Positions 8,798 through 24,293 of a stretch of DNA of 31,403 bases are shown piece after piece. Under the pieces are notes generated by a model that saw only the letters and a list, made by a program, of their open reading frames with translations, searched no databases and was not told the DNA's origin. Both the position numbers and the translations under genes were made by a program. The stretch is from a virus: positions 1-31,403 of IMG/VR virus record IMGVR_UViG_3300032288_002674, one strand, 5' to 3'. Positions within the stretch are counted from its first letter, which is position 1. The number at the start of each line of letters is the position of its first letter.

Positions 8798-9676
8798 ATG
8801 AGCAGTCGCGGATTCATGATGTTTGCCTACAACAACGAACAGTTGGATTATACCCAATTGGCCATTGTTGCGGCCTACGCAGTTAAAAAATACATGCCCG
8901 GCATGCCAGTGGTGTTGGTCACTAACCAAATGAGCGTGGACCAGTGCCGCGAACGCCACGGCGAAGAAATCATGCGAGCCGCTTGGGACGACATTGTCAT
9001 GACCAATCCTGACTATCAGCAGAACATTCGTCTACATCACGACGGTGCCTACAACAGTTTCAATGCACAGTTTACCAACACCAACAAGCACGATATCTAC
9101 AATCTTTCGCCCTTTGACGAAACCATCCTTATTGACACAGATTACTTGTGTGGCAATGACAATCTAGCCAAACTGTTTGGTGGACAGCACTCGGTGGCCA
9201 TGTATCGAGACGCTATAAATCTACGCTGTGAAGAACCCTATACCACAGAACGTTGGCTACACTATGCAGGTATTCGCATGTGGTGGTCAACTGTGGTCTA
9301 CTGGCGCAAGAGTGAAGAAGCACAACATTTCTTTAACGTTTGGTCCAGTGTAAAACAACACTGGGAATACTATCGTTATCTCTACAAGTTTCCAGGCAGT
9401 CTCTATAGAACTGACTATGCGGCTTCAATTGCCGCACATCTCTGTGATGGCTGGCAAGATGGCGGATTCATTGGCAGGATTCCTTTGCCCATGCGCTATC
9501 AAGACCAGCGTGACGATGTGGTCAAAATCCTAGGCCCCAACCATTGGGTCATGCTCAGCAATTTGCCCGAAGAATGGAAAAACGTTGCAGTGGAAATCCG
9601 CGGCGAAGATGTTCACATGATGAACAAGAAAAGCATCTTACGCAACTATGACACTATCATGGAGCAGTTGGCATGA
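8798..9676 (+). CDS. GT-A-type glycosyltransferase-like protein, 292 aa
   Basis: The N-terminus (GFMMFAYNNEQLDYTQLAIV, then MPVVLVTNQ) has the strand-helix-strand pattern of nucleotide-sugar transferases. Near residue 111 is DETILIDTDYLCGNDN, with DTD as the candidate metal- and sugar-nucleotide-binding DxD motif. Trp- and Tyr-rich segments follow (WLHYAGIRMWWSTVVYWRK), as in acceptor-binding regions. The length of 292 residues is normal for a single-domain GT-A enzyme, and there is no membrane anchor. The gene abuts the one before (TAA directly followed by ATG) and overlaps the next by four bases. A likely role is sugar transfer in the cytoplasm to a lipid, protein or DNA acceptor; donor and acceptor are unknown. 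Confidence 0.6.
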   Translation: MSSRGFMMFAYNNEQLDYTQLAIVAAYAVKKYMPGMPVVLVTNQMSVDQCRERHGEEIMRAAWDDIVMTNPDYQQNIRLHHDGAYNSFNAQFTNTNKHDIYNLSPFDETILIDTDYLCGNDNLAKLFGGQHSVAMYRDAINLRCEEPYTTERWLHYAGIRMWWSTVVYWRKSEEAQHFFNVWSSVKQHWEYYRYLYKFPGSLYRTDYAASIAAHLCDGWQDGGFIGRIPLPMRYQDQRDDVVKILGPNHWVMLSNLPEEWKNVAVEIRGEDVHMMNKKSILRNYDTIMEQLA

Positions 9677-10377
9677 CTGTATATGTTATTGACAATGCCA
9701 ACAATCCAAGATTATTTGATGTCACGCAAGCAGACATCAAATTCCACAATCCGCATCTAGGAGCAGAACGTTTGCCGGCCTACAGTGATCCTGCAGAACA
9801 GTTAAAATGTCTGCAGAATTTGCCACTGGATGCTGGTGATATTATTTGTTTTGCTGGTATTGCTCTCAGACGACATACTTGGCTCATGAAAGACATTGCT
9901 GTAGAACGCAGTTGGAATCTCATGCCGGGTCAGACAGTTGATCATAGACTAGTGCCCATCGAAGCAGGAAAGACTTTTAAGCGGCGACCACAAGACATGA
10001 ACAAACATGTAGGATCACCATATGTAATGATCATTGGCAATCCATTGACAGCCGTAGAGTCTTGGTCAATGATACAGAATTTTGCACCTGAAGATGTTTG
10101 GCCACAATACCTACCAGAACAGCCAACCATACATCATTGGCTCAGTGCCACTGCGGCTTTGTGCCCAGGCTGGTTGACTCCAGATTGGTTTCCAGTTGTT
10201 GACACCAGTGTTAGAGATTTAGAAATTGCACCAGTGATGTATGCCAGCAATCATTGGACAGATTGGATTGCCTTTTATCCAGCCAACGGAAACTTTAAAC
10301 TGGAAAACCACAGCCAACTTTATCCTGTGTGGTTAGACGAAACAGAAAAACCATTGGAGTATTGGCACAATGAGTGA
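9673..10377 (+). CDS. Unrecognised protein, 234 aa
   Basis: A soluble protein of 234 residues without motifs I recognise. The sequence alternates strands and helices (MTVYVIDNANNPRLFDVTQA; DIICFAGIALRRHTWLMKDI), is rich in Trp, Pro and His, and ends in an acidic tail with EYWHNE. It shares ATGA with the gene before and eight bases with the gene after, so it is almost certainly co-translated with the glycosyltransferase-like protein at 8798. GGAG lies about nine bases before the start. It could be a partner of that enzyme, but nothing in the sequence proves it. Confidence 0.55.
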   Translation: MTVYVIDNANNPRLFDVTQADIKFHNPHLGAERLPAYSDPAEQLKCLQNLPLDAGDIICFAGIALRRHTWLMKDIAVERSWNLMPGQTVDHRLVPIEAGKTFKRRPQDMNKHVGSPYVMIIGNPLTAVESWSMIQNFAPEDVWPQYLPEQPTIHHWLSATAALCPGWLTPDWFPVVDTSVRDLEIAPVMYASNHWTDWIAFYPANGNFKLENHSQLYPVWLDETEKPLEYWHNE

Positions 10378-11353
10378 AATTATTGATGATGGCATTCAGT
10401 TTGAACTTAGAAAACGCAAGAAAACTGGCCAAGACTTTTGGACAATTTACTATAACACCACCAACGGAACCATTTTAAACATTGAACCAGGTCAAATGCA
10501 ATCTCCAGAAACCCTGGTAATCAGTTATGTTAGAGTTAAAAAAATTCTGTCAGGTCAGGAAAATCAAAACAACTATCGCATAGACTACAATGAAAAACTT
10601 GGAGCACTAGATTTAATTGATCTTAGAAAACCTCAGGAATACAAAAAGAAAAAGCAAAATTGGCAAGTTTGGCTTAGCCAATCAGAATTCAGCGGAGATG
10701 CGTTTGCAGATCTACGAGCCACCCTGTTCCAAGAAAATGGAATGCTACGCATTGAAGCCAGTAGAGATTGGGGACAACAAACCAAAGAAAATCCCAACAG
10801 ACTCAAAGACTTTGAGATTTACTTGTCAGACGTTGAAGATCCTCATCTGGTGTTTGGCTTTAACAATATTCCTACTCAAGAAATCATTGAAAAGGGATTT
10901 TGGGAGTGTAGACTTTGGAGTTTTATGGATCACGGTCTAGTGCAAAATATCTTGTATCACAATCAAAACATCAGACTAAATCTTCCCCCTGTTGCTCGAT
11001 CAGTTTCATTTAAAAGATCCAAACAATACTTTCCTTTCAGCGGTATCATTGATGATCAGACACTCATGAGTCATCCAGGGCCTGGACAACACATCAGCAT
11101 TTTTGTTAAAAACAACTCTGTCTGGGCGCAGAGTCATTATGAAAAAGGTTCAAGTCTTGACAACATAATTGGAAACCTTCGTGCAGGACTGATCTGGCGC
11201 GACGACCCAGATAACTTTCTTGGTTGGGTTGAGTTTCCTGCTTTGATGTTGAGACAACCTCAACCATTTGAATTGATCAGTGATTGGAACGATCCACACC
11301 CACCAAATCTATTATATAAAGCAAACAACATAGACATTGGAGTCTTACAATGA
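10370..11353 (+). CDS. Unrecognised protein, 327 aa
   Basis: A 327-residue soluble protein, Lys- and Asp-rich in its first half (FELRKRKKTGQDFWTIYYN) and beta-rich overall, with no signal peptide, membrane segment or known catalytic motif. It contains a basic patch near residue 88 (PQEYKKKKQNW) and a Pro/His-rich C-terminus. It overlaps the gene upstream by eight bases and shares ATGA with the first of three DxD-type paralogues downstream. GGAG is present before the start. Its place inside the operon suggests a role with the sugar-transfer genes or with the virion, but neither is supported by motifs. Confidence 0.55.
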   Translation: MSEIIDDGIQFELRKRKKTGQDFWTIYYNTTNGTILNIEPGQMQSPETLVISYVRVKKILSGQENQNNYRIDYNEKLGALDLIDLRKPQEYKKKKQNWQVWLSQSEFSGDAFADLRATLFQENGMLRIEASRDWGQQTKENPNRLKDFEIYLSDVEDPHLVFGFNNIPTQEIIEKGFWECRLWSFMDHGLVQNILYHNQNIRLNLPPVARSVSFKRSKQYFPFSGIIDDQTLMSHPGPGQHISIFVKNNSVWAQSHYEKGSSLDNIIGNLRAGLIWRDDPDNFLGWVEFPALMLRQPQPFELISDWNDPHPPNLLYKANNIDIGVLQ

Positions 11354-12321
11354 AAACCCCTATCAGTGAATTTGATGTAGTGTTCATCAGTTACGATGAA
11401 CCTAATGCCGACGAGAACTGGGCAGACTTATTAGAGAAGTGCCCGTGGGCCAAACGCAGTCATGGCGTGTTTGGTAGTGATGCTTGCCATAAAGCCGCTG
11501 CCAAAATGGCAGAAACAGAACGATTTATCAGCATTGATGCTGACAACAAAGTGCGTCCTGACTTTTTTGAATTAGAACTTGATTTACACAAGTTTGATCG
11601 CAGTGATGTATTGTCTTGGTCAGGTAAAAATGTCATCAATGGCCTAGTCTACGGCAACGGCGGTGTTAAACTTTGGCCCAAGAAAGTTGTAGAGCAAATG
11701 AGAACACACGAAGCAGTGGATTCAGGCGCCGGTGCTGTTGATTTTTGTTGGGATATTCACTATCATCAACTCAACAACATCTACAGCGATGTCTACAATA
11801 ACTCAACACCATACCAGGCCTATCGTGCAGGATTTCGTGAAGGGGTGAAACTTGCACTACACGACGGTCGTCCAATGGATTGGCGCCAAATCAAAGACAA
11901 GAATCACTACAAGAATCATCGTAGACTCTTGGTGTGGATGAGTGTTGGTGCCGACGTTGACAATGGTCTTTGGGCCATGTATGGTGCTAGATTGGGCTGT
12001 TATCTAACCAACCTACATCGCGGCTGGGACTATACCCTAGTCAGAGATTTTGAATGGCACACTCAGTATTGGAACGAAGATGTAGCACCAAGATTTGCCG
12101 GCGGCAATGAACGTTGTGTGCGTAGCAATTACACCTGGGACAGAGAAAAACTTCAATCAGAAATTGTCAAACTTGGTCGCGCACTCAGACAAGATCTAGG
12201 ACTTGACATTGCCGAACTTGACGACGCCGGCAGCAAGTTTTTTAAAGCCAGTTACTTTAATCCTCATAGACTTGGTCCACTAGTCAAAGAATCTGATGTT
12301 GAACAGTTTATTCTGGAATGA
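11350..12321 (+). CDS. Glycosyltransferase-like paralogue 1 of 3 (DEPNAD family), 323 aa
   Basis: The protein opens with a beta strand and FISYDEPNADENW (residues 13-24), then SDACHKAA (44-50) and the strand FISIDADNKV (59-68) with DAD as a candidate DxD metal site. Further conserved blocks are NGLVYGNGGVKLW, MRTHEA, VDFCWD, PYQAYRAGFREGVKL and WAMYGARLG. These blocks recur in the next two genes. The order of motifs fits a GT-A-like nucleotide-sugar-binding fold; similar proteins occur in T4-like marine phages, recalled and not checked. GGAG lies eight bases before the ATG, which overlaps the previous stop. Substrate is unknown. Confidence 0.6.
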   Translation: MKTPISEFDVVFISYDEPNADENWADLLEKCPWAKRSHGVFGSDACHKAAAKMAETERFISIDADNKVRPDFFELELDLHKFDRSDVLSWSGKNVINGLVYGNGGVKLWPKKVVEQMRTHEAVDSGAGAVDFCWDIHYHQLNNIYSDVYNNSTPYQAYRAGFREGVKLALHDGRPMDWRQIKDKNHYKNHRRLLVWMSVGADVDNGLWAMYGARLGCYLTNLHRGWDYTLVRDFEWHTQYWNEDVAPRFAGGNERCVRSNYTWDREKLQSEIVKLGRALRQDLGLDIAELDDAGSKFFKASYFNPHRLGPLVKESDVEQFILE

Positions 12322-12324: not shown

Positions 12325-13200
12325 ATGCTAGATGTCTTTTTTATTTCCATAGGTGAGGCCAATGCCGAAGATAACTGGAAAAAGTTAACACAGTTACGGC
12401 CAGATGCCAAGCGTGTGCAAGACGTCAAAGGCATCTATGAAGTTCATAAGACTTGTGCAAAAATCAGCACCACAGAAAATTTTTGGGTAGTTGATGCGGA
12501 TGCTTGGGTTCTCAATGACTTTGATTTTGCTTGGGAGCCAGATACCAATGTTCGTCACTGGAACGTGCCTGAACCCGAGTGTGTGTTAATTTGGCGCAGT
12601 CGCAATCCAGTCAACGACCTTGAATACGGATACGGCGGAGTCAAAATGTTTCCAAGACAACCGTTTATGGAAGATCGTGCCTGGCACATTGATCTATCAA
12701 CAACCATTGGATCTGTCACAGTAATCAAAGATCAACTCAGTTGTGAAACGCGATTCAATGCCACGCCTGAAAGTGCTTGGATTGGTGGATTTAGAGAGTG
12801 TGCTAAACTAGCATCATTGACTTCGGTGTGCGGTCGTATTCAACGTAAAAATTACAGCATGATGGAAGAATTAGAAGAACTAGAACGTTACATTGCCACG
12901 CAAGACTGGACAGCAGAACAACGCACAGCCTATCGCAAAGGTAAAAAGGCTGTTATCATTGACAGTTACAAATACGAAACAAACATCTACAATTACTTTG
13001 GCGACATAGAAACAGCCGCTGATCGTTATAGTGCTTGGTCACGTTACGGTTGGCATAGATACAACGGGCAGTATGCAGTATTAGGTGCTCAAGCAGGAGT
13101 CAAGTATGGATTAAAGAATGCCAGCAACCTGCAGGCAATGAACCAAATCAATGATTGGAATTGGTTACGACAGGAGTTCAAAAAACATGTCAATGTTTAA
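12325..13200 (+). CDS. Glycosyltransferase-like paralogue 2 of 3, most diverged, 291 aa
   Basis: The motif order matches its two neighbours but the residues have drifted: ISIGEANAEDNWKKL replaces SYDEPNADENW, GIYEVHKTCAK replaces SDACHKAAAK, and FWVVDADAWV keeps the DAD motif. LEYGYGGVKMF matches the YGNGG block, and WIGGFRECAKLAS matches GFREGVKL. A charged helix (MMEELEELERYIATQD) is inserted in the middle. The start at 12325 lies three bases after the previous stop. The divergence suggests a changed acceptor or donor rather than decay, because the frame is intact and the DAD motif is kept. Function is inferred from the family resemblance only. Confidence 0.6.
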   Translation: MLDVFFISIGEANAEDNWKKLTQLRPDAKRVQDVKGIYEVHKTCAKISTTENFWVVDADAWVLNDFDFAWEPDTNVRHWNVPEPECVLIWRSRNPVNDLEYGYGGVKMFPRQPFMEDRAWHIDLSTTIGSVTVIKDQLSCETRFNATPESAWIGGFRECAKLASLTSVCGRIQRKNYSMMEELEELERYIATQDWTAEQRTAYRKGKKAVIIDSYKYETNIYNYFGDIETAADRYSAWSRYGWHRYNGQYAVLGAQAGVKYGLKNASNLQAMNQINDWNWLRQEFKKHVNV

Positions 13201-14164
13201 AGTTAAACCAACTGCTCAGAGTTTCAAACCCAGCAATAGAATGATTCGAGACATCCCTGTGGTGTTTTTAAGTTTTGATGAGCCCAACGCAGATCATCAC
13301 TGGGAATTGTTGCAAAAAGTAGTGCCACATTCCAACATTGCCCGAGTGCATGGAGTCAAAGGATTTGATGCCTGCCACAAAGCCGCTGGCAATGCATTTC
13401 CTTGGAGCGACTATGTTATCACTGTAGACGCTGACAATCAAATTGATCCTGAGTTCTTTAACAAAACTGCGCCACAGCAGATCACGTTAGGCATGACTTT
13501 TACCTGGGGCGGCCGCCAATTTACCAATGGCTTGATGTATGGCAACGGTGGACTCAAAATGTGGAATCGAGATCACTTGTTGAACATGCGTAGTCACGAA
13601 GCATCTGACAACGAAAGAGATGCTGTTGACTTTTGCTGGGACTTTCAACAATACAAAGAAGTTCCAGGTTGTTATTCAACTGTTTATACCAACGGCAGTC
13701 CTTATCAAGCATTTCGTGTGGGCTTCAGAGAAGGTGTAAAATTGTCAATGGAACAAGGACAGGTCATTGATCCGGAACGAATCAGCAAAGACATGCATGC
13801 CGCTAACTTTCAACGATTGCTGACTTGGATGACTGTGGGTCGAGATGTAGAACACGGTGCCTGGAGCATGTATGGCGCCAGACTAGCGGCCAAGATGTTG
13901 TATTTTGATGATTTTGATTTTACTTTGATCAGAGATTACGATTGGTTCATTGACTTTTTTGAACAACACAAAAACAAAGAAATTATCACTGAACTTACCA
14001 CACTGAGTGTAAAATTGCAAGACGTGTATGGATTCAGACTTCCTGGGTTTACCGCTGATGAAAGTCGCATGCTCAAAATGCTACAACTGCATCCTGAAAA
14101 ACCTTTGACCTATGAAGATGTGCGTTGGAGAACCAACTTGGGCATGTTTGGATGGTTCAAATGA
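13187..14164 (+). CDS. Glycosyltransferase-like paralogue 3 of 3, 325 aa
   Basis: Close to paralogue 1: FLSFDEPNADHHW, GFDACHKAAG, ITVDADNQI with DAD, NGLMYGNGGLKMW, MRSHEA, VDFCWD, PYQAFRVGFREGVKL, WSMYGARLA. It has about 20 extra N-terminal residues before the conserved core. An in-frame ATG at 13151 would overlap the gene before by 50 bases; ATG at 13187 has AGGAG about ten bases upstream and gives a 14-base overlap, so I chose it. The stop TGA shares bases with the next start. Probably the result of tandem duplication with paralogue 1. Confidence 0.6.
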   Translation: MSMFKVKPTAQSFKPSNRMIRDIPVVFLSFDEPNADHHWELLQKVVPHSNIARVHGVKGFDACHKAAGNAFPWSDYVITVDADNQIDPEFFNKTAPQQITLGMTFTWGGRQFTNGLMYGNGGLKMWNRDHLLNMRSHEASDNERDAVDFCWDFQQYKEVPGCYSTVYTNGSPYQAFRVGFREGVKLSMEQGQVIDPERISKDMHAANFQRLLTWMTVGRDVEHGAWSMYGARLAAKMLYFDDFDFTLIRDYDWFIDFFEQHKNKEIITELTTLSVKLQDVYGFRLPGFTADESRMLKMLQLHPEKPLTYEDVRWRTNLGMFGWFK

Positions 14165-15387
14165 CAGAAGAACAAATCTTAGAAGCCAAGATTGCCATCC
14201 TCTATTTCATTGAAGAAGCCTGCGGCTATCGTCACAGTCTGCATTGGCTTAGACGCTGGATGGAAAGTGGTCAACAAAGCGACCTAGAACATCTCATTAT
14301 TGAAATTGGTCGAGAAAATTTCTACGACTTCAAGCGGTTAATTCAAGCAACGCAGGGCGACAATGATGCTCGTTGGGAGATGATGTCAATTTTGACTCAA
14401 CGTGGTATCATAGTTCCTGATGAATGGAAGCCAGTGCGCGAAGAAGAAGGCTCGTTACTAGAGCAGGATATAGTGTTGACCTCAGCACCAGAAGCAATGA
14501 TTCACAGTATGCAGTTTGGTGAGCAGGATTTTAATACTGCTATCGGCAACACATGGAACGTGTTTAATTGGATTCAAGAAAACAAAAAAAATTATCCTGA
14601 ACTAGATCCCATTGGGATCTTGGCCTATGCGATGGAAAAACTTTACAACAGTCAAAGCAATGTCTATGAAGTGTGTTACTTTATTAGAATGCTGTTGGGC
14701 AAAGGCACACTGATAGAAAATACCATCAATGAAGACCTAGAACTTTTTGCCAAAAACGTTGGCAATTATTTTGCTGACCAAGAATGGGTAACCAAAAATC
14801 TCATGTTGGCTATTCAAAATGGTCCAGAAGAAAACTGGAAGGATGCGCTCAGTAGAAACCAAGTTAAAAGTAAAATTTGGTTGCTGGACAAACTCGAAAG
14901 CACTGGCTGGTTTACACAAAAGCCAACAGTGACCAAAGAAAATCCCACAATGGTTTTGGTTGGGGGTTGGGTTGGATTACTGCCTTTTATTGCGGCAGTT
15001 CGCAATCAAAAACTAGGTGCAGTGATCAATGTTGACATAGACGAATCAACACATTTGCCAGCCAAGGTTTTAAATGGTCAGCACTACACTGAATTTAGAA
15101 ATCTAGCCAAAGACATAAGAACACTTGACTTCAACAAGTTTAAAAACTTTGTCATAGTTGACACCATTGTTGAACATTTTGAAAATCATGCAGAATGGAT
15201 ACAAAGTCTGCCCGCAGGAACCAAACTTATATTGCAAGGCAACGACATGTTTGATGTGCCAGACCATGTAAACTGTCATCATAACTTGGATGAGTTTGTT
15301 GACACCTGCGGCCTAGCCAAAGTTATTTGGCAAGGTGAACTTACTTTGCCAGGTTGCACAAGATTTATGGTAATTGGCACAACATGA
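14161..15387 (+). CDS. Two-part protein with methyltransferase-like C-terminal domain, 408 aa
   Basis: The first 250 residues are helical and acidic, without recognised domain. From about residue 270 the chain has a Rossmann-like pattern: MVLVGGWVGLLPFIAAVR as a glycine-rich first strand and helix, AVINVDIDES as the second strand with acidic residues for a cofactor ribose, then FVIVDTIVEHF and a last strand CTRFMVIG. This resembles class I S-adenosylmethionine methyltransferases, although the first motif is GGWVG rather than the usual GxGxG. The ATG at 14161 overlaps the previous stop; an earlier in-frame ATG at 14125 would overlap 40 bases and has no advantage. A similar architecture is known to me only as uncharacterised phage proteins. 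Confidence 0.5.
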   Translation: MTEEQILEAKIAILYFIEEACGYRHSLHWLRRWMESGQQSDLEHLIIEIGRENFYDFKRLIQATQGDNDARWEMMSILTQRGIIVPDEWKPVREEEGSLLEQDIVLTSAPEAMIHSMQFGEQDFNTAIGNTWNVFNWIQENKKNYPELDPIGILAYAMEKLYNSQSNVYEVCYFIRMLLGKGTLIENTINEDLELFAKNVGNYFADQEWVTKNLMLAIQNGPEENWKDALSRNQVKSKIWLLDKLESTGWFTQKPTVTKENPTMVLVGGWVGLLPFIAAVRNQKLGAVINVDIDESTHLPAKVLNGQHYTEFRNLAKDIRTLDFNKFKNFVIVDTIVEHFENHAEWIQSLPAGTKLILQGNDMFDVPDHVNCHHNLDEFVDTCGLAKVIWQGELTLPGCTRFMVIGTT

Positions 15388-15902
15388 GCAAATTAAGATA
15401 TTATAGAACAGATGCCAAAATAGATCTAGAACGTCTGCTGGTAGAAGCCAATGCCTTGGCCTGGGACGATACAATCAAGCAGTATCGTCCTCAAACTGCT
15501 GTGCAAAATGCCGACGGCAACGAAGACTACCTCGAAGGCACAGGATCAAAACCTGGTCAAACAGACGACAAGTGGGCCAATCTACGAAGCGATTTATCAA
15601 ACACTTGGTGGGAAACATTTTTTGCCAGTTTGCCTTGGCGTGTGTATAGAACCAGAATCATGATAATGCCGCCGCGTAGTTGCTACAGCATACACAGCGA
15701 TACCAGCCCCAGGTTGCACATTGCGTTAAAAACGCATCCGCAGGCCAAGTTCATTTTTACCAATCCACCAGAACTAGTTCATGTTCCTGCTGACGGATAT
15801 GTTTGGTGGGTTGATACTCGTGAGGAGCACACAGCCATCAATGCCAGTCTGGAACCACGTTGGCACCTGCTATTAAGCCTGGTAAACACACCAGACCATT
15901 AA
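15384..15902 (+). CDS. Iron/2-oxoglutarate oxygenase-like protein (aspartyl/asparaginyl hydroxylase type), 172 aa
   Basis: Residues 100-170 give a cupin-like core: CYSIHSDTSPRLHIAL with H104 and D106 as candidate iron ligands, a Pro-rich turn, YVWWVDTREEHTAIN with H149 as the third ligand, and PRWHLLLSLV with R159 as the candidate 2-oxoglutarate anchor. This H-x-D...H...R order is that of the aspartyl/asparaginyl beta-hydroxylase superfamily. The ATG at 15384 overlaps the previous stop by four bases; an in-frame ATG at 15354 is less likely. Substrate could be a peptide, a lipid or a small molecule made by the same cassette. Confidence 0.6.
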   Translation: MSKLRYYRTDAKIDLERLLVEANALAWDDTIKQYRPQTAVQNADGNEDYLEGTGSKPGQTDDKWANLRSDLSNTWWETFFASLPWRVYRTRIMIMPPRSCYSIHSDTSPRLHIALKTHPQAKFIFTNPPELVHVPADGYVWWVDTREEHTAINASLEPRWHLLLSLVNTPDH

Positions 15903-17510: not shown

Positions 17511-18142
17511 AACCATTAGATCACGACCAAATTGGCGCGGTAACCAAACTAGCCAATGAAATTTATAACGGACTAGATGAAGACAAGTATCCTGACTTTA
17601 GAGTAGGCTACGATATCAATGCTGAAGAAAATCGAGAAAAATATTTTACTATGTTCATGCTTCCTTCGCACTTTGTTGGCTTTAATCAGCGAAGAGCCTA
17701 TGGCGTGTTTGACGATAATGATAGGTTAATTTCAGCCGTTGGTGTTAGGCGCTACGATCATTTTCCATGCTGGAGTCTAAGTTGGTTGTTGAGTCCAAAG
17801 ATTGGTGCTAGGTTTATTCCATTGTTTAGATTCATCGTTGACGAACTTTGCAAAATACATGAAACCGCAGGATTCAATGAATTGTTGGTCACTTATCCCA
17901 GTTCCAGAGAAGAAGCCTACAGTAGAATCATGTTGTTCATGCGTGAACGTTATTTTACATTTGTAGAAACCACTATTCCTGCAAAAACAGTCAGTGCTTT
18001 TGGATTTATTCACGAACTGTCTGGAAAAACGTTACACCCGCACGATATCAATCTGAGAAGATACATACTGCGTAGAGAAGATATGACCCCCGCTAGTGAA
18101 GGCGGACAAGCAAAAAGAAAAATAAAACAAGACAATGATTGA
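17495..18142 (+). CDS. Possible GNAT-type acyltransferase, 215 aa
   Basis: The N-terminus MQYSIKPLDHDQIGAVTKLA and the strands RAYGVFDDNDRLISAVGVRR then SLSWLLSPKIG follow the GNAT pattern of two to three antiparallel strands after two helices. FNELLVTYPSSREEAY and FMRERYFTFVETTIP could be the later helix and strand. A canonical cofactor loop is not obvious. The tail is Lys-rich. GGAAG precedes the ATG, and the gene overlaps the PP-loop gene by 16 bases and the desaturase by eight. If the call is right, it would transfer an acyl group to an amine or hydroxyl, but it could be a different fold. Confidence 0.4.
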   Translation: MQYSIKPLDHDQIGAVTKLANEIYNGLDEDKYPDFRVGYDINAEENREKYFTMFMLPSHFVGFNQRRAYGVFDDNDRLISAVGVRRYDHFPCWSLSWLLSPKIGARFIPLFRFIVDELCKIHETAGFNELLVTYPSSREEAYSRIMLFMRERYFTFVETTIPAKTVSAFGFIHELSGKTLHPHDINLRRYILRREDMTPASEGGQAKRKIKQDND

Positions 18143-19046
18143 TACTACTGTAAAAACCTGGTTTGCTGACCAGTGGGATTTATATGCCAAAACTCGGCAA
18201 ATTCCTTACATTGTTGCACTATGGCTTCCATATCATATTCTTGGCATTGGTGCTATTTTATTTGCATTGGCCACTGAATGGAGTTGGTGGTATCCAGTAT
18301 GGGCTGTTTGCGGCTGGATTCTGCTGGACGGCGTAGGCAACAACCTAACACTACACAGATTCCTAAGTCACCGCAGTTGGGAACCCCGCAAGTGGATGGA
18401 ACCTTTTTTACTTTGGGCGGCAACAATGACTGCCGAGGGCTCACCAATTTGGTGGGCGGCACTACATCGCGGTCATCACCATAGAGTCAGCGATCAAGAA
18501 GGCAAAGATATCCACACACCTGTGGGCAATGGATGGTGGCACAGTTACATGGGTTGGCAGTTTAGCATCAAGCAAGACTCAGTGAGTTTCCGCCATGCAG
18601 TAGATCTATTGCGTGATCGTAGGCTGGTGTTTATTCACGAAAACTACAACAAGATCATCTACGGAACTTTGCTGTTGAGTTGGTTGCTGTTTGGTTTGAC
18701 TTTTACCATTTGGTTCTTTATTGTTGGCGCACTGATGAGTCTACACGCTGACGGATTGGTAAACACATTTGGACATGTGCCTGGTGCTGGTTACAAGAAC
18801 TTTGAAAACCGTGATGCCAGCACCAATGTATGGTGGATTGGTTATTTTCATTGGGGCTCAGGTTGGCACAACAACCATCACAGAGAGCCCAGCAGTTTTG
18901 ATTTTGGTTCAACAGTCAGTGGTAGAAAGTTTGAGTTTGATCCTTGTTTCTTGATAGTATGGCCATTTGCTTCTACAACGGAATTAAAGAGGTTGTGGAG
19001 CAATCGTAAAAATGCTATACTCAAGAGACAAGGAACATCAGCATGA
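18135..19046 (+). CDS. Membrane fatty acid desaturase (delta-9 acyl type), 303 aa
   Basis: All three histidine boxes of membrane di-iron desaturases are present: HRFLSH (residues 74-79), HRGHHH (111-116) and HNNHH (245-249), with an extra HADGLVNTFGH at 204-214. Hydrophobic stretches near residues 25-47, 50-66, 88-105 and 175-203 are the expected membrane passes. The length of 303 residues fits bacterial acyl-lipid or acyl-CoA desaturases. The enzyme introduces a double bond into a fatty acyl chain at the cytoplasmic membrane, using oxygen and electrons from a host carrier. Phage copies of this family are known in marine phages. It shares four bases with thyX and follows the possible acyltransferase, so it is late-expressed. 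Confidence 0.85.
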   Translation: MIDTTVKTWFADQWDLYAKTRQIPYIVALWLPYHILGIGAILFALATEWSWWYPVWAVCGWILLDGVGNNLTLHRFLSHRSWEPRKWMEPFLLWAATMTAEGSPIWWAALHRGHHHRVSDQEGKDIHTPVGNGWWHSYMGWQFSIKQDSVSFRHAVDLLRDRRLVFIHENYNKIIYGTLLLSWLLFGLTFTIWFFIVGALMSLHADGLVNTFGHVPGAGYKNFENRDASTNVWWIGYFHWGSGWHNNHHREPSSFDFGSTVSGRKFEFDPCFLIVWPFASTTELKRLWSNRKNAILKRQGTSA

Positions 19047-19924
19047 CTTTACGAACAGAGATTGATTTTGAGCAAGACAAAACTTACCTTCCAGTCCTGG
19101 ATCACGGATTTGTTGGTTTAGTTGATCACATGGGATCTGATGCGGCTATCGTGCAGGCCGCTAGAGTCAGTTATGGAGCCGGCACCAAACAAGTGCAGGA
19201 TGACCGTAACCTAATTCGTTATCTAATGCGGCACGAGCATACTACGCCATTCGAAATGTGCGAAGTCAAGTTTCACCTCAAGTTACCCATCTTTGTGATG
19301 CGACAACTTGTTAGACACAGGACAGCCAGCCTAAATGAATATTCCGCTAGATATTCTGTTATCACAGATGAATTCTACATACCTGATGCCAAAAACCTCA
19401 AGCCGCAGAGTTCAACCAATAAGCAGGGTCGAGAAGGAGAACTCGACAGTATCGCATCAAACCACACCATCTACGATATGCGACAAGCATGGGATAGTAA
19501 CTACGAACTCTATGAACGCTTTATCAACGACTTTGGCCTGGCGAGAGAAACTGCTAGACAGATCTTACCGGTGGGTGGATACACCGAGTGTTATTGGAAA
19601 GCAAATCTAAAGAACTTTCTGCATATGGCACGACTTCGTATGGATAGTCATGCACAATGGGAGATACAAGAATTTGCCAGAGCCATGTATGCATTGGCTC
19701 AACCATTGTTTCCTGAAGCCTGTCAAGCATTTGAAGATTATCAACAAAATGCTGTCAAATTCAGCGTTCAAGACCTAGCATTACTCAAACGTATAATCAA
19801 CAGAGAACGTTGGTTTGATTTGGAACAAGATTTTCGTGACGACAAAGGCATCGCCAAATCTTTTGGCATGAGTCAGCGAGAAGTCGTTGAGTTCAAACGA
19901 AAGTTAAACTTGGATGCTCTATAA
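19043..19924 (+). CDS. thyX: Flavin-dependent thymidylate synthase ThyX
   Basis: The signature RHRTASLNEYSARY at residues 91-104 matches the ThyX motif RHRx(7)S with the Asn-Glu and Arg-Tyr that follow. The segment IVQAARVSYG at the start and HTTPFEMCEVKF before the signature are also typical. ThyX makes dTMP from dUMP using FAD, NADPH and methylenetetrahydrofolate, in the cytoplasm, and supplies thymidine nucleotides for phage replication. The length of 293 residues is a little above many bacterial forms. It begins within the desaturase stop codon (ATGA) and overlaps the oxygenase-like gene that follows by eleven bases. A replication gene in a late-promoter operon is unusual. Confidence 0.93.
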   Translation: MTLRTEIDFEQDKTYLPVLDHGFVGLVDHMGSDAAIVQAARVSYGAGTKQVQDDRNLIRYLMRHEHTTPFEMCEVKFHLKLPIFVMRQLVRHRTASLNEYSARYSVITDEFYIPDAKNLKPQSSTNKQGREGELDSIASNHTIYDMRQAWDSNYELYERFINDFGLARETARQILPVGGYTECYWKANLKNFLHMARLRMDSHAQWEIQEFARAMYALAQPLFPEACQAFEDYQQNAVKFSVQDLALLKRIINRERWFDLEQDFRDDKGIAKSFGMSQREVVEFKRKLNLDAL

Positions 19925-20795
19925 GATCAGCGATCAACCTTTTTTGAGATTTGACCAGCATCTAGATATTCCTGGATTGCTGGATCTCAAAGAAGAACTT
20001 TGTCATGCTTTCACTGAGGCTTGGTTAGGGCTTGGCAAAGGAAACCAAGCATTGCCATCAGTGGCAGGCCATCCAGCCAATTGGCCAAATAGCAACAACA
20101 ATGTTGAGGAAGTGTATCTTCCTTACTATGAGGGACAGGAACTGGCAGGAGCACTACATCAGACTCTCAAAGACCAGTCTGCTCCCGGGCATGCTCGTGT
20201 TAAATCTTTTGTAGAAAATGGTCACCCCAGTTACGCATACATGTTTTTAAAATTGTTGGGCAATAATCAAGGCATTGGCTATCAAATGTTTATCAGACAG
20301 CCAACAACCAGCAATTATGCAGAAAAGCATCTTGCAGACAAAACCAAAGATTCATTGTATTATGACAGGTTTATTTTTTTCCTAGATTGGGTTAAAAAGC
20401 AAAAAATATTTTCTGAGATTGGTCGCGTGGTCGTCTTCTTCAATGACCAACATCAGTTTTGCCTAGTGCATAGAGATCACAATCAATTCAATGTAGTAGA
20501 AAATCCTGATGAGTTTGTTTGGTTCAATGTATTTCCGGATCGCAAACGTTTTTATGTGCTAGATGGTGAAACCGGAGAAAAGCACTACTTTGACAACCAT
20601 GCAATTTGGTTTGACACAGCAAACTGGCACGGCAGTGATCCTTGTGCGTTTGCGGCATTTACAATTCGTGTTGACGGAGTCTTTACCAAGACTTGGCGTA
20701 AGAAGATTGGATACAAACCAAAGGTCACAGAAGAAAAGAAGGTTCCTAAGAAACCTTCTAAGTCTAACAACATGTGGAGCCAGGCTAAGGATTAA
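19914..20795 (+). CDS. Iron/2-oxoglutarate oxygenase-like protein, 293 aa
   Basis: Residues 171-255 form a candidate cupin core: VVVFFNDQHQFCLVHRDHN with H186 and D188 as metal ligands, FVWFNVFPDRKRFYVLD as core strands, IWFDTANWHGSDP with H239 as third ligand, and FTIRVDGVF with R252 as possible 2-oxoglutarate anchor. This is the same motif order as in the proteins at 15384 and 22524 (minus strand). The first 170 residues are specific to this gene. The last 35 residues are Lys/Pro-rich and may be disordered. The ATG overlaps thyX. Last gene of the plus operon; its 3' end overlaps the convergent minus gene by eleven bases. Confidence 0.55.
   Translation: MLYKISDQPFLRFDQHLDIPGLLDLKEELCHAFTEAWLGLGKGNQALPSVAGHPANWPNSNNNVEEVYLPYYEGQELAGALHQTLKDQSAPGHARVKSFVENGHPSYAYMFLKLLGNNQGIGYQMFIRQPTTSNYAEKHLADKTKDSLYYDRFIFFLDWVKKQKIFSEIGRVVVFFNDQHQFCLVHRDHNQFNVVENPDEFVWFNVFPDRKRFYVLDGETGEKHYFDNHAIWFDTANWHGSDPCAFAAFTIRVDGVFTKTWRKKIGYKPKVTEEKKVPKKPSKSNNMWSQAKD
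20731..20758 (-). terminator. Possible terminator of the minus-strand operon
   Basis: GAAGGTT (20738-20744) and AACCTTC (20752-20758) can pair around a seven-base loop. On the minus strand the stem is followed by TTTTCTT, a weak U-rich run. It lies just past the stop of the minus gene ending at 20785, inside the coding sequence of the convergent plus gene. Support is moderate. Confidence 0.35.
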
Positions 20796-21849
20796 GTTCT
20801 TTAGTGGCAGTTAAAACACCCTGCTCGTTTTCCCACAAGAATCCCCAGGCATTGTTGTATCTGGTAATGGTAGGCAAACTAGGCCACTTGGTTTTGTGTA
20901 GCAGGTAGTTTTGATTGGGCCAAATATCATAGATCAGTTTCTTTGCTGGTAGTTTGTAACTGGCCCAGGTATCTCCTAACTTGGGTTCTTTGGTATATAG
21001 AGCCCAGCGTTGAAATTCTTCTGTATCAAAAAAGTTCACAACCTGACGAGCCATTGCCACGGCCTGTTCCGCAGTAGGAGCATGCATGCTCATACGATAC
21101 TTCACAGCCTGCCACTTCATGGTAAAGTTTAACCACCATAGAAAGTCGTGATTGGAATCTAAAGTTATAGGACAGGCATTGACTAAATTGTAAAGCATTT
21201 GTTCACGTTCATCTCTGTGCTCTTTGACTTTGTCTAAGAGCCAAACTAGACTGCCAGTTGCCCAAGGATTATGGATGTCATTGTAGTTTAGTGTAGAGTC
21301 CATGTAACTCTTCAGAGTCAAACTACCAAACAAGTTATCAGCACATTCACCGGTGACACACAGATAGCGAGGATTTGACACAATATCATAAAATCTGTTG
21401 CTGTTGATCAAGCAATGGCCAAAGTTTGGCAAGATAACCTGTTTAAAAAATTCAGGGTTTTCAATCTGACTATCTTCGTTGAATGCCAACAGCACACGGT
21501 CTTTGACATCGTCCCAGTAAGGGCTGGAAATTAGTAAGCAAACAATTAGCGTGGAATCAATGCCGCCCGAATACATGATCACTAGTTTTTCGAGATCGCT
21601 GTATTTGAAGTTGTCAATGATTTCATTCATGCGCTGATTAGCACAGGCTTCAAATGACATAGCCAACCCTGGTGCAGGCATTGGACTGTTGTTGTGTATT
21701 TCAATTCCTGGCACATTTAGTGTGCCAGTCCTATCACTTAAACTGATCCAAGGATTAAACATTCGTAAGAAACTGATTTCTGGTGGATCAATTTCTTGTG
21801 CAATGTTGCTGTTGATCAAACGGTGTGGAATATAATAGAGTAAATTCAT
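20785..21849 (-). CDS. Asparagine-synthase-like PP-loop protein without glutaminase domain, 354 aa
   Basis: LVIMYSGGIDSTLIVCLLIS (residues 89-108) carries the PP-loop SGGIDST, and VTGECADNLFGSL (165-177) matches the S/TGxGGDELFGG-type motif of asparagine synthetase B, which supports this subfamily more strongly than the PP-loop alone. The first 88 residues contain no N-terminal Cys nucleophile, so the glutaminase half is missing. ATG at 21849 overlaps the stop of the upstream gene (TAATG); an open extension to 21927 would overlap that gene by 79 bases and is unlikely. Probably activates a carboxylate as an adenylate for amide formation. It is the second such enzyme in the window, on the opposite strand. 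Confidence 0.7.
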   Translation of the reverse strand: MNLLYYIPHRLINSNIAQEIDPPEISFLRMFNPWISLSDRTGTLNVPGIEIHNNSPMPAPGLAMSFEACANQRMNEIIDNFKYSDLEKLVIMYSGGIDSTLIVCLLISSPYWDDVKDRVLLAFNEDSQIENPEFFKQVILPNFGHCLINSNRFYDIVSNPRYLCVTGECADNLFGSLTLKSYMDSTLNYNDIHNPWATGSLVWLLDKVKEHRDEREQMLYNLVNACPITLDSNHDFLWWLNFTMKWQAVKYRMSMHAPTAEQAVAMARQVVNFFDTEEFQRWALYTKEPKLGDTWASYKLPAKKLIYDIWPNQNYLLHKTKWPSLPTITRYNNAWGFLWENEQGVLTATKELNP

Positions 21850-22475
21850 TACATTAACATACTCAAAAATGCATCTTCGTCCATAGCGGCTCTTGCCTGG
21901 GCAAATTCTATTTTGTTTGAGGCACAACGAATAGCCTCTTGATGCTTGATACGCAGGTATTCAAGTTTTCTAATCATGTCTTGTTGATTCATTGATTTGA
22001 CTGTGATCATTCTGGCAGCAACTTCTAAGTCAAGTCCTGCGGCATCAGCATAGTCTTGAATGAATCCAATACTTTCAGGATCACGAATACCTCCCAGCAC
22101 AGACCAGGCCTGTTGTGTTTTGTATTGATAGGCTTCTTGTTGCCACGGCACCACATCAGTGAATCGTTTGTAACCGTGAGCAATACGCTGATGAAGTTCA
22201 CCAACTAAACTTACTCTGGCTCGTAAGATCAGACTGAGTTCTTCAACCTCTGTGGGTTTCTTGGCACCAATCAATGATGTGTTTCTGGGCCCAGAAAATT
22301 TAATTTTAAAGTCAACATTGTTGTTTTTGAGTTGCTGGTATTCAACATCGTCGACACCATAAATTCTACAGATGGCTCTAAATTCGCTACCGCAGGCACT
22401 TTCCAACAAAGACAAACTTTCGTGCCAGGCTAAAACGTAGTTGTCGGCCGTGCAGGCCAATGCTATCCAATTCAT
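21849..22475 (-). CDS. Unrecognised helical protein, 208 aa
   Basis: A 208-residue protein, largely helical by composition, with no membrane segment or catalytic motif I recognise. The start region MNWIALACTADNYVLAWHES includes a short strand, and the rest is rich in Ala, Gln, Glu and Arg, ending in FAQARAAMDEDAFLSMLM. AAGGTGA lies about five bases before the ATG. It is the middle gene of a three-gene minus-strand set and is translationally coupled to the asparagine-synthase-like gene by TAATG. It may be a partner or a carrier for that enzyme, but nothing in the sequence shows this. Confidence 0.55.
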   Translation of the reverse strand: MNWIALACTADNYVLAWHESLSLLESACGSEFRAICRIYGVDDVEYQQLKNNNVDFKIKFSGPRNTSLIGAKKPTEVEELSLILRARVSLVGELHQRIAHGYKRFTDVVPWQQEAYQYKTQQAWSVLGGIRDPESIGFIQDYADAAGLDLEVAARMITVKSMNQQDMIRKLEYLRIKHQEAIRCASNKIEFAQARAAMDEDAFLSMLM

Positions 22476-22523: not shown

Positions 22524-23057
22524 TTACCGACCAAATATATCTGGAGTGAATCTAGCACTCAACATCAATCGGCGGTGCTCGCGAGATTGATTGATCACTT
22601 GGTGTGGTATATCAACGCGGACTACAGTAGGACGATCTACTATAACGGATTCAATGACTCTGGGTTCTTCTTGCCAGTTCAGTTTTAGATACTTTAGTCC
22701 TTGTCCATTGGCAGTTTCGTCAAGATTAAATTTGCCACCATACCAAAGCATTTCACCGACTTCGGTGATTGGCAAATTCAAGGCCCAATTGCTGGCCCCA
22801 ATTCTTTGAGCAGTGAAACCATCAACGTGGAGTTCTTGAATATTTTCAGGCGACTGTGCAAACACAATGGCACTTTTGATTTCATGATCGTGGCCTGTGA
22901 TTTTCTTGACCTGATTGCAAAGCATAGAACCAACCCAAGCCAACTCTTCGTTTTTGAGAATATAAGATTTTTGGCCATCAACGTCCGGCATCAAGTGCTG
23001 GAAACGAACTTTGATCATGGGCCAGGTTACAATGTCAACGTGTTTGTATAAAAGCAT
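22524..23057 (-). CDS. Iron/2-oxoglutarate oxygenase-like protein, 177 aa
   Basis: ELHVDGFTA (H77, D79), the strands WALNLPI and EMLWYGGKF, DIPHQVIN (H152) and HRRLMLSARF (R162 or R163) give the H-x-D...H...R order of the aspartyl/asparaginyl hydroxylase superfamily. Length is typical for a minimal cupin core. Two starts compete: ATG at 23057, five bases after a CTAAATA late motif, and ATG at 23018 (MIKVRFQHL), which would have a 38-base leader but no clear Shine-Dalgarno. I chose the longer form because the motif-to-ATG spacing repeats elsewhere in the window, with low certainty on the start. Confidence 0.55.
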   Translation of the reverse strand: MLLYKHVDIVTWPMIKVRFQHLMPDVDGQKSYILKNEELAWVGSMLCNQVKKITGHDHEIKSAIVFAQSPENIQELHVDGFTAQRIGASNWALNLPITEVGEMLWYGGKFNLDETANGQGLKYLKLNWQEEPRVIESVIVDRPTVVRVDIPHQVINQSREHRRLMLSARFTPDIFGR

Positions 23058-23062
23058 GTTTT

Positions 23063-23069
23063 TATTTAG
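23063..23069 (-). promoter_or_regulatory. Late promoter motif CTAAATA (minus strand)
   Basis: On the minus strand CTAAATA is followed by AAAAC and the ATG at 23057. It is divergent from the TATAAATA at 23097 on the plus strand, and the two motifs lie 27 bases apart, making a compact two-way late promoter region for the oxygenase-like gene set and the hydroxylase-type gene. Confidence 0.55.
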
Positions 23070-23096
23070 TCGTGGTCAACAATCATATTATGAGCA

Positions 23097-23104
23097 TATA
23101 AATA
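23097..23104 (+). promoter_or_regulatory. Late promoter TATAAATA
   Basis: This is an exact T4 late element. Expected initiation is near 23110, leaving a leader of about 12 bases that contains GGAGAG six to ten bases before the ATG at 23122. This supports the short start of the downstream gene over the open frame from 23011, which would run across both late motifs. Confidence 0.7.
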
Positions 23105-23121
23105 CCTGGATGGAGAGTTTA

Positions 23122-23580
23122 ATGGAACATATCGTAGTCTTTTTTGCATGGACACTTTATCTATATGTCATACACAGAGCGATTCACGCAGTTGGAGTAA
23201 AATATTTTCCAATAGCGTTCCAGGCGCATGCAGACCATCATAGATACATCAACACACATGCTAAAACCACCTGGCATTGGAACAATTTGTTTTTGTTCAA
23301 TGATACCTGGATGAGCACACTTGACTTATGGATTACTGAAGTAATACCCACCTTGATCTTTAGTTGGATAACTGGCTACTGGTGGGTCAGCGTATTCTAC
23401 TACTTCTGGGCGGCATTTGTTCAAGAGATAATTGAACACAATCCAGACTTTGACATGTATCCTGTGCTTACAAGTGGAAAGTGGCATCTGGTTCATCACC
23501 GAGATACCACTGTCAACTTTGGCCTGTTTGTTCCACTATGGGATAGGCTATTTGGAACCTATCGCCGTCATGTTGGTTGA
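23122..23580 (+). CDS. Small fatty acid hydroxylase / sterol desaturase superfamily protein, 152 aa
   Basis: Histidine boxes HRAIH (residues 18-22), HADHH (36-40) with a further H46, and HLVHH (122-126) match the di-iron membrane hydroxylase superfamily (also carotene hydroxylases). Hydrophobic segments near residues 2-17, 63-82 and 86-103 fit membrane passes. The length of 152 residues is short for the family but the boxes are complete, as in beta-carotene-hydroxylase-like forms. The start at 23122 has GGAGAG and lies just after a late promoter. Likely substrate is a host membrane lipid acyl chain or an isoprenoid. It ends convergently with the ATP-grasp-like gene, overlapping by 13 bases. 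Confidence 0.75.
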   Translation: MEHIVVFFAWTLYLYVIHRAIHAVGVKYFPIAFQAHADHHRYINTHAKTTWHWNNLFLFNDTWMSTLDLWITEVIPTLIFSWITGYWWVSVFYYFWAAFVQEIIEHNPDFDMYPVLTSGKWHLVHHRDTTVNFGLFVPLWDRLFGTYRRHVG

Positions 23581-24293
23581 GTTTCAAACCTTTTAGAACT
23601 TCCTGAGCGTTCAACCCAATCGTAAAAACTGTTGATTGATTTCTTGGGATTATCTATTTCGTGCTCAATGACAACAGGCCAAATTTCAAACCAATGTCGA
23701 GTCACTAGACCTTTGCTGGCGCCATATGCGGCATTGGTTGGATGAAATTTTAGTTTAATGATGTTGCCAGGCATCACGTAACTTTGGCTGGGTCCATTGA
23801 TAACACCGTGTGCATCTAAGTTTGCCCATGCATGCTCAATGGCATTGATAAACTCTGGCACTTTGAACTCTTGGAACAACTTCCATTGACCGCCAATGTA
23901 TTTCCAAACACTCATAACAACGTGTCTGCCTTTGTAACTTAAAGTATCAATGAAGATAGTGTCTTCTTCCACTGGCAAGTTTAGGTAAGAACTTTTGCGT
24001 TTATCAATGTATCCAGGTATGTTGACATTACATAGTGCAATCTGGTCATTGATAGATTCTAAAAATTTGTGGCCTTCTTGATCCCACGCCACAGCAGACA
24101 TAATTTTTAAACTGCGGTCCCACTCTTCTTTGGCCAAATCAATGATTCTAACATTTGAAAGATCTGCTGGAACTGTGCCGGATTCTAATGTTTGTCCATT
24201 GGTCAACAGCACAGCAACTTCAGAGTTTTTGACTTTAAATGCAGGAATAATTCTAGTGGCTATTTCTGATGGATTGATAAAAAGAATTTTCAC
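23568..24293 (-). CDS. ATP-grasp-like protein lacking the central ATP-binding region, 241 aa
   Basis: The N-terminus (MKILFINPSEIATRIIPAFK, then EVAVLLTNG) looks like the pre-ATP-grasp domain of the carboxylate-amine ligase type. Residues 111-132 (IFIDTLSYKGRHVVMSVWKY) and 163-184 (GVINGPSQSYVM, IIKLKFHPTNAAYG) look like the late part of the ATP-grasp domain (VDTVS.DG.H.V..IW.Y and NGP.H.E.M...LIE...R.GG). The stretch that normally lies between them, with the lysines and loop that hold ATP, is missing, so the chain is about 150 residues shorter than usual. Two typical catalytic acidic/Arg positions are changed. Start is GTG with weak AAGAG. It follows the gene ending... at 24298 with a four-base gap. 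Activity is doubtful. Confidence 0.5.
   Translation of the reverse strand: MKILFINPSEIATRIIPAFKVKNSEVAVLLTNGQTLESGTVPADLSNVRIIDLAKEEWDRSLKIMSAVAWDQEGHKFLESINDQIALCNVNIPGYIDKRKSSYLNLPVEEDTIFIDTLSYKGRHVVMSVWKYIGGQWKLFQEFKVPEFINAIEHAWANLDAHGVINGPSQSYVMPGNIIKLKFHPTNAAYGASKGLVTRHWFEIWPVVIEHEIDNPKKSINSFYDWVERSGSSKRFETQPT

Follow-up and report, generated by a model that had tools for sequence, protein, structure and literature searches.

The 31,403-nucleotide stretch of viral DNA analysed here (the window) is the entire IMG/VR record IMGVR_UViG_3300032288_002674, and since it opens inside a gene, A, it is a fragment. From left to right it carries the virion-type genes A–E, a plus-strand run g1–g14, a minus-strand trio m17–m16–m15, the plus-strand gene g18 and a final stretch, m19–m28, that includes a VWA/MoxR pair and a radical S-adenosylmethionine (radical-SAM) gene. 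Our subject is the enzyme-rich island that extends from g1 to m19, in which a preliminary description had seen a late-expressed modification or biosynthesis cassette; the open reading frames on which it relied are all present where it had placed them. The island and the tail-fibre genes that lead into it are composed as follows, with 2OG standing for 2-oxoglutarate.

4745–5842, plus strand: C, virion-type, with a weak Phage_cement-like C-terminus (Pfam 0.0033, under cut-off)
5844–8378, plus strand: D, tail-fibre-like (judged from its position and, by eye, from Calx-beta-like repeats); contains a Gly/Tyr tract and has no Pfam match
7926–8174, plus strand: the (GGY)n tract within D, which holds 24 GGY
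8414–8421, plus strand: TATAAATA, a late-promoter-like site before E, by sequence
8450–8797, plus strand: E, 115 aa, first gene of the putative late operon, with g1 next
8798–9676, plus strand: g1, GT-A-like by a DTD motif only
9673–10377, plus strand: g2, no family; occupies the slot of a g1 paralogue in distant phages
10370–11353, plus strand: g3, beta-rich, weak FN3/Ig-like predicted fold
11350–12321, plus strand: g4, DxD protein, GT-A/GT2-like
12325–13200, plus strand: g5, DxD paralogue
13187–14164, plus strand: g6, DxD paralogue
14161–15387, plus strand: g7, methyltransferase-like by motif only
15387–15902, plus strand: g8, 2OG/Fe oxygenase, Cpz10-like Asp_Arg_Hydrox
15919–16563, plus strand: g9, acyltransferase-like (GNAT through a distant homologue)
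16560–17510, plus strand: g10, PP-loop protein without a glutaminase domain
17495–18142, plus strand: g11, conserved protein; acyltransferase label unsupported
18135–19046, plus strand: g12, fatty acid desaturase
19043–19924, plus strand: g13, ThyX, nucleotide metabolism
19914–20795, plus strand: g14, 2OG-like motif HxD...H...R
20785–21849, minus strand: m15, PP-loop protein with a TGECADNLFG motif
21849–22475, minus strand: m16, no family; adjoins m15 and m17
22524–23057, minus strand: m17, 2OG-like by motif; heads the minus-strand run
23122–23580, plus strand: g18, fatty acid hydroxylase-type, 23122 being the likely start; TATAAATA upstream at 23097
23568–24293, minus strand: m19, conserved; ATP-grasp label unsupported

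The family labels of the DxD proteins g4–g6 and of g8, g12 and g18 are well supported. Both lipid-type enzymes proposed at the outset exceed their Pfam cut-offs, namely g12 (FA_desaturase PF00487, 2.2e-15, 57.6 bits against a cut-off of 29.7, with His boxes seen in the translation) and g18 (FA_hydroxylase PF04116, 1.2e-12, 48.8 bits against 31). The three DxD paralogues likewise held up: g5 and g6 are 32% and 40% identical to g4, D63 and D65 are invariant across 26 sequences, and the structure predicted for g4 (predicted local distance difference test score, pLDDT, 84) has a GT-A fold. Its Foldseek matches in the PDB reach E 1.2e-4 (34 rows at or below 1e-3; probability 0.91–1.0; template modelling (TM) scores 0.2–0.4), and the VIA comparison gives Z up to 10.8 with a root-mean-square deviation of 3.0 over 141 residues (residues 1–167). 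On this model g4 is predicted to be of GT-A type, and g4–g6 would transfer sugars. Grouping g4–g6 and g1 as a single sequence family was rejected (hhalign 0.4%), as was g2 as a diverged g1 paralogue (hhalign 0.5%). Among three proposed 2OG oxygenases, g8 scores above the Pfam cut-off (Asp_Arg_Hydrox, 3e-5, 24.4 bits against 22.6), and its nearest solved relative in a PDB profile search is 7v4f, 'Beta-hydroxylase' (Cpz10; 3.7e-24 over 130 residues, the HxD region being common to both), the caprazamycin beta-hydroxylase (PMC9814697). The other two, g14 and m17, conserve HxD...H...R and have no significant Pfam, PHROG or PDB match.

Labels that are plausible include those of g14 and m17 together with the GT-A assignment of g1, the methyltransferase assignment of g7, the two PP-loop proteins and the GNAT assignment of g9. 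For g1 the DTD motif is there and nothing beyond it; for g7 the motifs GGWVG/DTIVEHF are the sole basis of the label, neither the protein nor a distant homologue matching Pfam and g7 itself having no significant PDB match. The SGGxDS signature of the PP-loop pair is invariant (17/17 sequences of g10, 11/11 of m15), with no Pfam match for g10, a sub-threshold Asn_synthase match for m15 (13.9 bits against 21) and marginal matches for both in PDB profile searches; a distant homologue of g10 exceeds the QueC cut-off (2.6e-6), and TGECADNLFG in m15 is presumably an AsnB-like motif. Two acyltransferases had been suspected. One, g9, survives through its match (1.6e-9) to a protein encoded on a different phage contig and assigned by Pfam to GNAT (1e-4, above cut-off), with 0 of 18 members of the g9 family itself matching Pfam; the other, g11, was rejected because none of 16 family members matches an acyltransferase model. 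The ATP-grasp label of m19 was also given up, as neither Pfam nor PHROG supports it. PDB profile searches for g1, g4–g6, g7, g9, g14 and m17 returned nothing significant, and the best match in a PHROG scan of g1–g10 reached only 0.018. Several of the families originally named are therefore unproven, and the product is a matter of inference. Overlooked in the preliminary description were ThyX (g13; Pfam 2.5e-55), g2, m16 and the beta-rich, perhaps virion-type g3, whose predicted structure (pLDDT 83; predicted TM-score, pTM, 0.48) finds weak PDB matches, chiefly FN3/complement-type beta sandwiches, and among viral structures has three proteins of no known function at the top, with weak minor-tail and FN3 proteins lower.

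Gene order was followed in IMG/VR contigs recovered with g4 (184 relatives, 80 kept) and in 42 loci recovered with m15, two sets that share some contigs; each count refers to the next detected family among 33 query families, genes outside these being invisible. E is followed by g1 in 56/56 cases, g1 by g2 in 59/59 and g3 by g4 in 78/78; g5 precedes g6 in 72 of 75 (g6 was undetected between g5 and g7 in L007, L048 and L053), g7 precedes g8 in 57 of 59, g8 precedes g9 in 53 of 54, and g9 precedes g10 in 47/47. Along the second run, m15–m16 and m16–m17 are each kept in 40/40 loci and m17–g18 in 39/39. Where the preliminary description had allowed for homologues scattered singly in no conserved order, the opposite was found. 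Looser elements are g14, present in 18 of the 42 m15 loci, and m19, undetected in L099 and L100. The orientation of g18 is inverted in 10/39 relatives, every one also carrying g14. A second scan with a divergent g4 query recovered mostly the same contigs again. The most conserved proteins, g1 and g4, have median identities of 81.5% and 84.5%; the medians are 74–79% for g12 and g18, 62–66% for g6, g10 and m15, and 39–56% for g2, g3, g5, g7–g9 and g11, similar to A–D (42–57%). Median omega lies between 0.02 and 0.12 over the 20 families tested, with its minimum in g1 and g4 (D and g18 were left out, and m17, g14 and g6 contribute 1, 2 and 3 pairs only). The cassette is under purifying selection, and its order is conserved beyond chance. 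Overlaps join 11 of the 13 junctions within g1–g14, although exactly four bases are shared at only five, fewer than the "most" first reported. Inside the lineage, order alone shows little because the flanking genes m20–m22 are equally syntenic, and distant comparisons therefore weigh more.

Such comparisons came from a scan of a genome collection with the DxD profile, which gave 53 loci, several of them phage contigs in the bins of metagenome-assembled genomes (MAGs) with the arrangement C/D–E–g1–g1′–...–DxD, where g1′ is the g1 paralogue. Contigs L161, L162, L165–L167, L184, L188, L191 and L198 carry tail-type genes along with the locus and are binned into bacterial MAGs, whose titles name Gammaproteobacteria, Neomarinimicrobiota, Rickettsiales, Rhodobacteraceae and Betaproteobacteria; as to habitat, MAG titles such as TaraRedSea hint at the sea. 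In a 335 kb contig the locus appears, by eye, to be bordered by C, D and E on one side and by m21, m22, VWA and MoxR on the other. It encloses two DxD genes followed by g7-type, radical-SAM, 2OG-like and g9-type genes, a desaturase gene and a PP-loop gene of g10 type, an order similar to that of the window except that the PP-loop gene comes after the desaturase instead of preceding it. The 2OG label in this contig and in the cellular loci described below comes from a loose pattern that flags unrelated proteins too, and one such protein of the contig had no match in Pfam. The same island includes UDP-sugar dehydrogenase and DegT aminotransferase genes (Pfam), and a glycan is therefore indicated.

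With the DxD protein of the 335 kb contig as query, at least 597 viral-contig stretches encode a relative, and the best 80 of these form the distant set. Sixty-five of these contigs extend more than 5 kb upstream of DxD; E adjoins g1 in 64 of them, and 61 have C or D upstream. The slot between g1′ and DxD is filled in 70 distant loci; up to 30 non-redundant slot proteins match the N-terminal half of g3 (hhalign 98%, E 2.3e-13), and one that was tested is CBM_5_12-like (Pfam 0.0093, below cut-off). A common core consisting of tail fibre C/D, E, g1, one variable gene, g3 and DxD thus recurs in distant viral contigs. Directly downstream of it, the distant set differs in gene content from the window lineage: among the 52 contigs with more than 8 kb downstream, a CxxxCxxC protein (loose motif) is found in all 52, a second DxD in 29, a g7-type gene in 22, an m28-type gene in 20, an m17-type gene in three and a g10-type gene in one, with no g8-, g9-, g11-, g12-, g14-, m15- or g18-type gene within at most 10 kb after DxD. 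The 2OG oxygenases, PP-loop enzymes, GNAT protein, desaturase and hydroxylase of the window are here called module II. Its confinement to the window lineage was considered and dropped, since the distant loci end at most 10 kb past DxD, while its g9-, desaturase- and g10-type counterparts in the 335 kb contig stand 16–22 kb behind the first DxD; module II genes might thus follow further on. Among 50,697 isolate records, tblastn found no match for g4, g10 or E of the window (E limit 1e-3 or 1e-2), nor for DxD and g1 of either the window lineage or the distant set, and megablast against isolates gave nothing useful.

Late expression of the cassette, which the preliminary description attributed to one TATAAATA promoter, is supported by promoter-like sequence of a different distribution. 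The motif occurs twice on the plus strand of the window, at 8414 and 23097, and m15–m17 and m19 lie on the minus strand; moreover, an exact copy precedes E in just 5 of 53 relatives. What is conserved is the core TAAATA which, counted in distinct sequences within 75 bases upstream, is found before B and C (18/18 each), E (28/31) and m17 (10/11), against 1.8–3.0 in shuffled sequence, and never before g1–g7, g9–g11, g13, g14, m15 or m16. Because this core is common to B, C, E and m17, both runs appear tied to late, structural-type expression. TAAATA is absent from the 90 bases examined before gp23 (two of four upstream regions were readable), and the capsid gene therefore offers no positive control. 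The copy before g8 lies in the g7 frame and may serve module II as an internal late promoter at its start. Ahead of E, the core occupies the loop of an inverted repeat in some relatives (7/28 exact, shuffled 2.2%; window 8400–8449).

The two halves of module II flank ThyX, and three contigs are informative on their absence. In L074 (stop codons counted as coding) the gap between g7 and ThyX is 7 bases and that between ThyX and m20 is 34; L076 reads g8, ThyX, m20, and L080 reads g7, ThyX, contig end. A tree of g4 only groups L074 and L080 with L072, which has module II (starred support 95/92), and places L076 apart at an unresolved fork, with the window and other module-II contigs outside and with long outgroup branches. 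Most simply, g9–g12 and m15–m19 were jointly lost in two lineages while the ThyX between them was kept. This joint absence suggests that g9–g12 and m15–m19 function together and that g1–g7 can work without them. ThyX, retained where module II is absent, probably stands outside the pathway. Two ThyX types exist in the lineage, that of the window (also in L073, L074, L077 and L080) and a shorter one, about 29% identical, which holds the same spot between the module II halves in most relatives.

Homologues of the DxD proteins are also found in Bdellovibrionota, Roseibium/Tateyamaria, Photorhabdus and actinobacterial contigs. In a Halobacteriovoraceae MAG contig, L182, three radical-SAM genes, a g7-type gene and a GT2 gene lie near DxD, together with an Asp_Arg_Hydrox-like protein (9.5e-4, below cut-off) and a PP-loop protein above the QueC cut-off. 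This cellular recurrence supports a functional unit, and it suits an envelope glycan too. The earlier suggestion that the genes act together is thus supported by the conserved order, the set in the 335 kb contig, the joint sub-block absence and the L182 neighbourhood.

With respect to possible substrates, the C-terminal domain of D bears a Gly/Tyr loop that in the window contains the GGY tract. Of 33 contigs that have a readable D and extend at least as far as g9, 31 contain five or more GGY (L066 has 4 and L072 has 2); none of the three contigs without module II (L074, L076 and L080) does. The count includes near-copies and omits contigs ending before g9 and those in which D is unreadable (L002, L027, L045, L060 and L061). 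L076 carries a different fibre gene between C and E and is therefore little informative on the tract. Given the L072 exception and shared ancestry, we treat the association of the GGY tract with module II, which was drawn post hoc and has a thin phylogenetic basis, as a lead only. In Pseudomonas phage Cygsa01 (L131 12721–14870), two m15-like PP-loop genes (annotated MnmA) flank a gene of 90 aa, and the group immediately follows a Gly-rich protein in the tail/baseplate region.

These observations lead us, with a probability of roughly 0.45, to a late glycan or modification island with which a lineage of T4-like jumbo phages would decorate the tail-fibre region of the virion. Gene content, order, selection, conservation of the late core, the predicted GT-A fold of g4 and the families of g8, g12 and g18 are shown by the analysis; that sugars are transferred, that they go to the virion, and the sequence of the steps are inferred. 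The tail-fibre genes and the island would be transcribed together, late in infection; soluble glycosyltransferases would move sugars from nucleotide-sugar pools onto virion protein, with D and g3 as the best candidate acceptors, perhaps at tyrosines of the GGY tract of D; and g7 and module II would then trim the glycan or its acyl or aminoacyl groups. Virion decoration is supported because of the fixed order, the E–g1 adjacency, the homology of the g3 slot, the late core and the low omega, and further because of the UDP-sugar dehydrogenase and DegT genes, the GGY counts and the placement of the PP-loop genes in Cygsa01. No flippase, polymerase or oligosaccharyltransferase is among the Pfam matches of the window, the rest of the genome not having been searched for them. 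Were the virion the target, the island would represent a widespread way for phages to decorate themselves, with possible effects on adsorption and recognition. Whichever the target, the E–g1–x–g3–DxD core provides a concrete handle of five genes and two candidate substrates.

Several results weigh against virion decoration. The desaturase and the fatty acid hydroxylase are typical lipid enzymes and a better fit to an envelope glycolipid, and cellular DxD homologues adjoin glycosyltransferase genes (by Pfam in L182, elsewhere by eye). TM-scores for the GT-A matches of g4 are low. The g3 model is weak overall, as its pTM indicates, and the viral structures closest to it belong to proteins without an assigned function. 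TAAATA also occurs before g8 (20/36) and g12 (6/24), inside the preceding gene. L072, sister to L074/L080, has module II and a short Gly/Tyr loop without a GGY tract. Finally, there is the synteny of m20–m22 already mentioned.

The close rival is a late change to the host envelope (lipopolysaccharide (LPS) or its O-chain, a glycolipid or a membrane lipid), directed for example against superinfection or against re-adsorption of progeny to debris, in which the glycosyltransferases would extend a surface glycan and the desaturase, the hydroxylase and the Cpz10-like oxygenase would alter its lipid part. The lipid enzymes g12 and g18, the cellular company of DxD, which in L182 extends to PP-loop, Asp_Arg_Hydrox-like and radical-SAM genes, and the published reading of the host recognition clusters (HRCs) of pelagimyophages all speak for it, and the island would then be a fixed envelope-remodelling set. 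Its rigid position behind tail-fibre genes with g3 interleaved, in the window lineage and the distant set alike, a late signal held in common with structural genes and the lack of a lipid-carrier, flippase or ligase gene among the window's Pfam matches speak against it. We regard an envelope target as a real possibility, somewhat less likely than the virion.

In the portion of PMC7029224 considered here, the HRC of pelagimyophages and cyanomyophages is a non-syntenic variable island of T4-like phages, located between VrlC and gp14, an enzyme-rich part of the structural region with tail fibres, glycosyltransferases and sometimes radical-SAM cassettes, and similar regions are read as changing the host O-chain. 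That portion also names an aspartyl/asparaginyl beta-hydroxylase as a pelagimyophage core gene and reports freshwater pelagimyophages with a stearoyl-CoA desaturase and a 2OG protein, without stating whether these lie in the HRC, and it makes no mention of a PP-loop pair or a fatty acid hydroxylase like those of the window. The window shares with HRCs an enzyme-rich region with tail-fibre genes inside a T4-like structural region; it does not share their hypervariable, non-syntenic character, its order being fixed within the lineage. For this reason we regard the island as a fixed HRC-like variant and not as an HRC member. A similar assembly is annotated beside the tail-fibre genes of Pelagibacter phage Mosig EXVC030M (MT647606), with two Asp_Arg_Hydrox genes, an FA_desaturase, an N-acetyltransferase, a methylase and a dioxygenase. 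Window queries matched its g7-type and desaturase genes; over the 28.5 kb searched, relatives of DxD, the PP-loop proteins and g1 went undetected, and nitroreductases, a carbamoyltransferase and MoaA-type genes are annotated instead.

A pathway that matures tail fibre D (or g3) in the manner of a ribosomal natural product is, in our estimation, unlikely. Glycosyltransferases, oxygenases, PP-loop ligases and acyl or lipid enzymes would together produce, on g3 or at the Gly-Tyr tract of D, a glycan with many modifications and perhaps a lipid part; if so, this glycan would be an adhesive or protective coat of the fibre, and the core would mark a general class of uncultured self-decorating phages.

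More improbable is a collection of unrelated auxiliary genes in a permissive locus behind the tail module, held in place by mere lineage-wide synteny. The equal synteny of m20–m22, the embedded ThyX, the variable g14, the flipping g18 and the differing genes downstream of the core in the distant set speak for this account. Against it stand the comparable, similarly ordered genes of the distant 335 kb contig, the joint absence of g9–g12 and m15–m19 across ThyX in two lineages and the meeting of DxD, g7-type, PP-loop and Asp_Arg_Hydrox-like genes in L182. Scattered auxiliary genes were rejected on order and joint absence.

The natural-product-like character stressed in the preliminary description is fair for g8, with caprazamycin Cpz10 as its closest solved structure, and the mixture of PP-loop, GNAT, 2OG-like and radical-SAM proteins is in keeping with it; the UDP-sugar dehydrogenase and DegT genes, however, point to a glycan. 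A diffusible small molecule or nucleoside- or peptide-like natural product made during infection is nonetheless highly improbable, for no carrier protein, non-ribosomal peptide synthetase or exporter is among the window's Pfam matches, and the island is rich in glycosyltransferases and tied to tail-fibre genes. The substrate setting of Cpz10, a nucleoside antibiotic, is unrelated to that of g8. Glycosyltransferases and 2OG enzymes are known from DNA hypermodification pathways. Hypermodification of the phage DNA, for which the DNA glucosylation treated in PMC12619734 is a further precedent, is scarcely credible for an island with a late promoter, a tail-fibre position and no C5-methyltransferase, hydroxymethylase or base kinase among the window's Pfam matches.

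Mycobacteriophage virions reportedly carry glycans on capsid and tail-tube proteins (Freeman 2023, as cited in PMC12619734); there glycosylation was reported from chemistry, whereas here it is a proposal, and the window holds many more tailoring genes. The PP-loop enzymes WbpG, PseA and WbtH carry out ATP-dependent amidation in O-antigen and flagellin glycan clusters, an activity that g10 and m15 may share. Another aquatic jumbo lineage has several core glycosyltransferases, and its description cites virion glycosylation (PMC12619734). Literature searches found no account of the cassette itself.

The flanks of the island are made up of the following genes.

1–4032, plus strand: A, the C-terminal 1343 aa of a large tail/baseplate-type virion protein
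4070–4687, plus strand: B, 205 aa, structural gene
26483–29144: VWA/metallopeptidase-like (DUF2201) and MoxR-type AAA pair, far border of the locus
30352–31230: m28, radical-SAM protein

A is about 27% identical (tblastn) to virion proteins of PA5oct, SCTP-2 and other jumbo myophages, and its PA5oct homologue is annotated as a virion structural protein by electrospray ionization tandem mass spectrometry (ESI-MS/MS). A T4-type Gp23 capsid is present in 7 of 13 larger relatives searched (relatives reach 285 kb). In relatives the VWA/MoxR pair likewise stands at the far side of the locus, and in several of them an m28 homologue sits nearer, between m22 and m24. Proteins like m28 are also found alongside DxD, both in Bdellovibrionota and among the distant contigs. 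In the Oligoflexia MAG L202 (8804–10708), a single 635 aa frame combines a DxD domain with a CxxxCxxC part; its neighbours are a g7-type gene and three further CxxxCxxC proteins.

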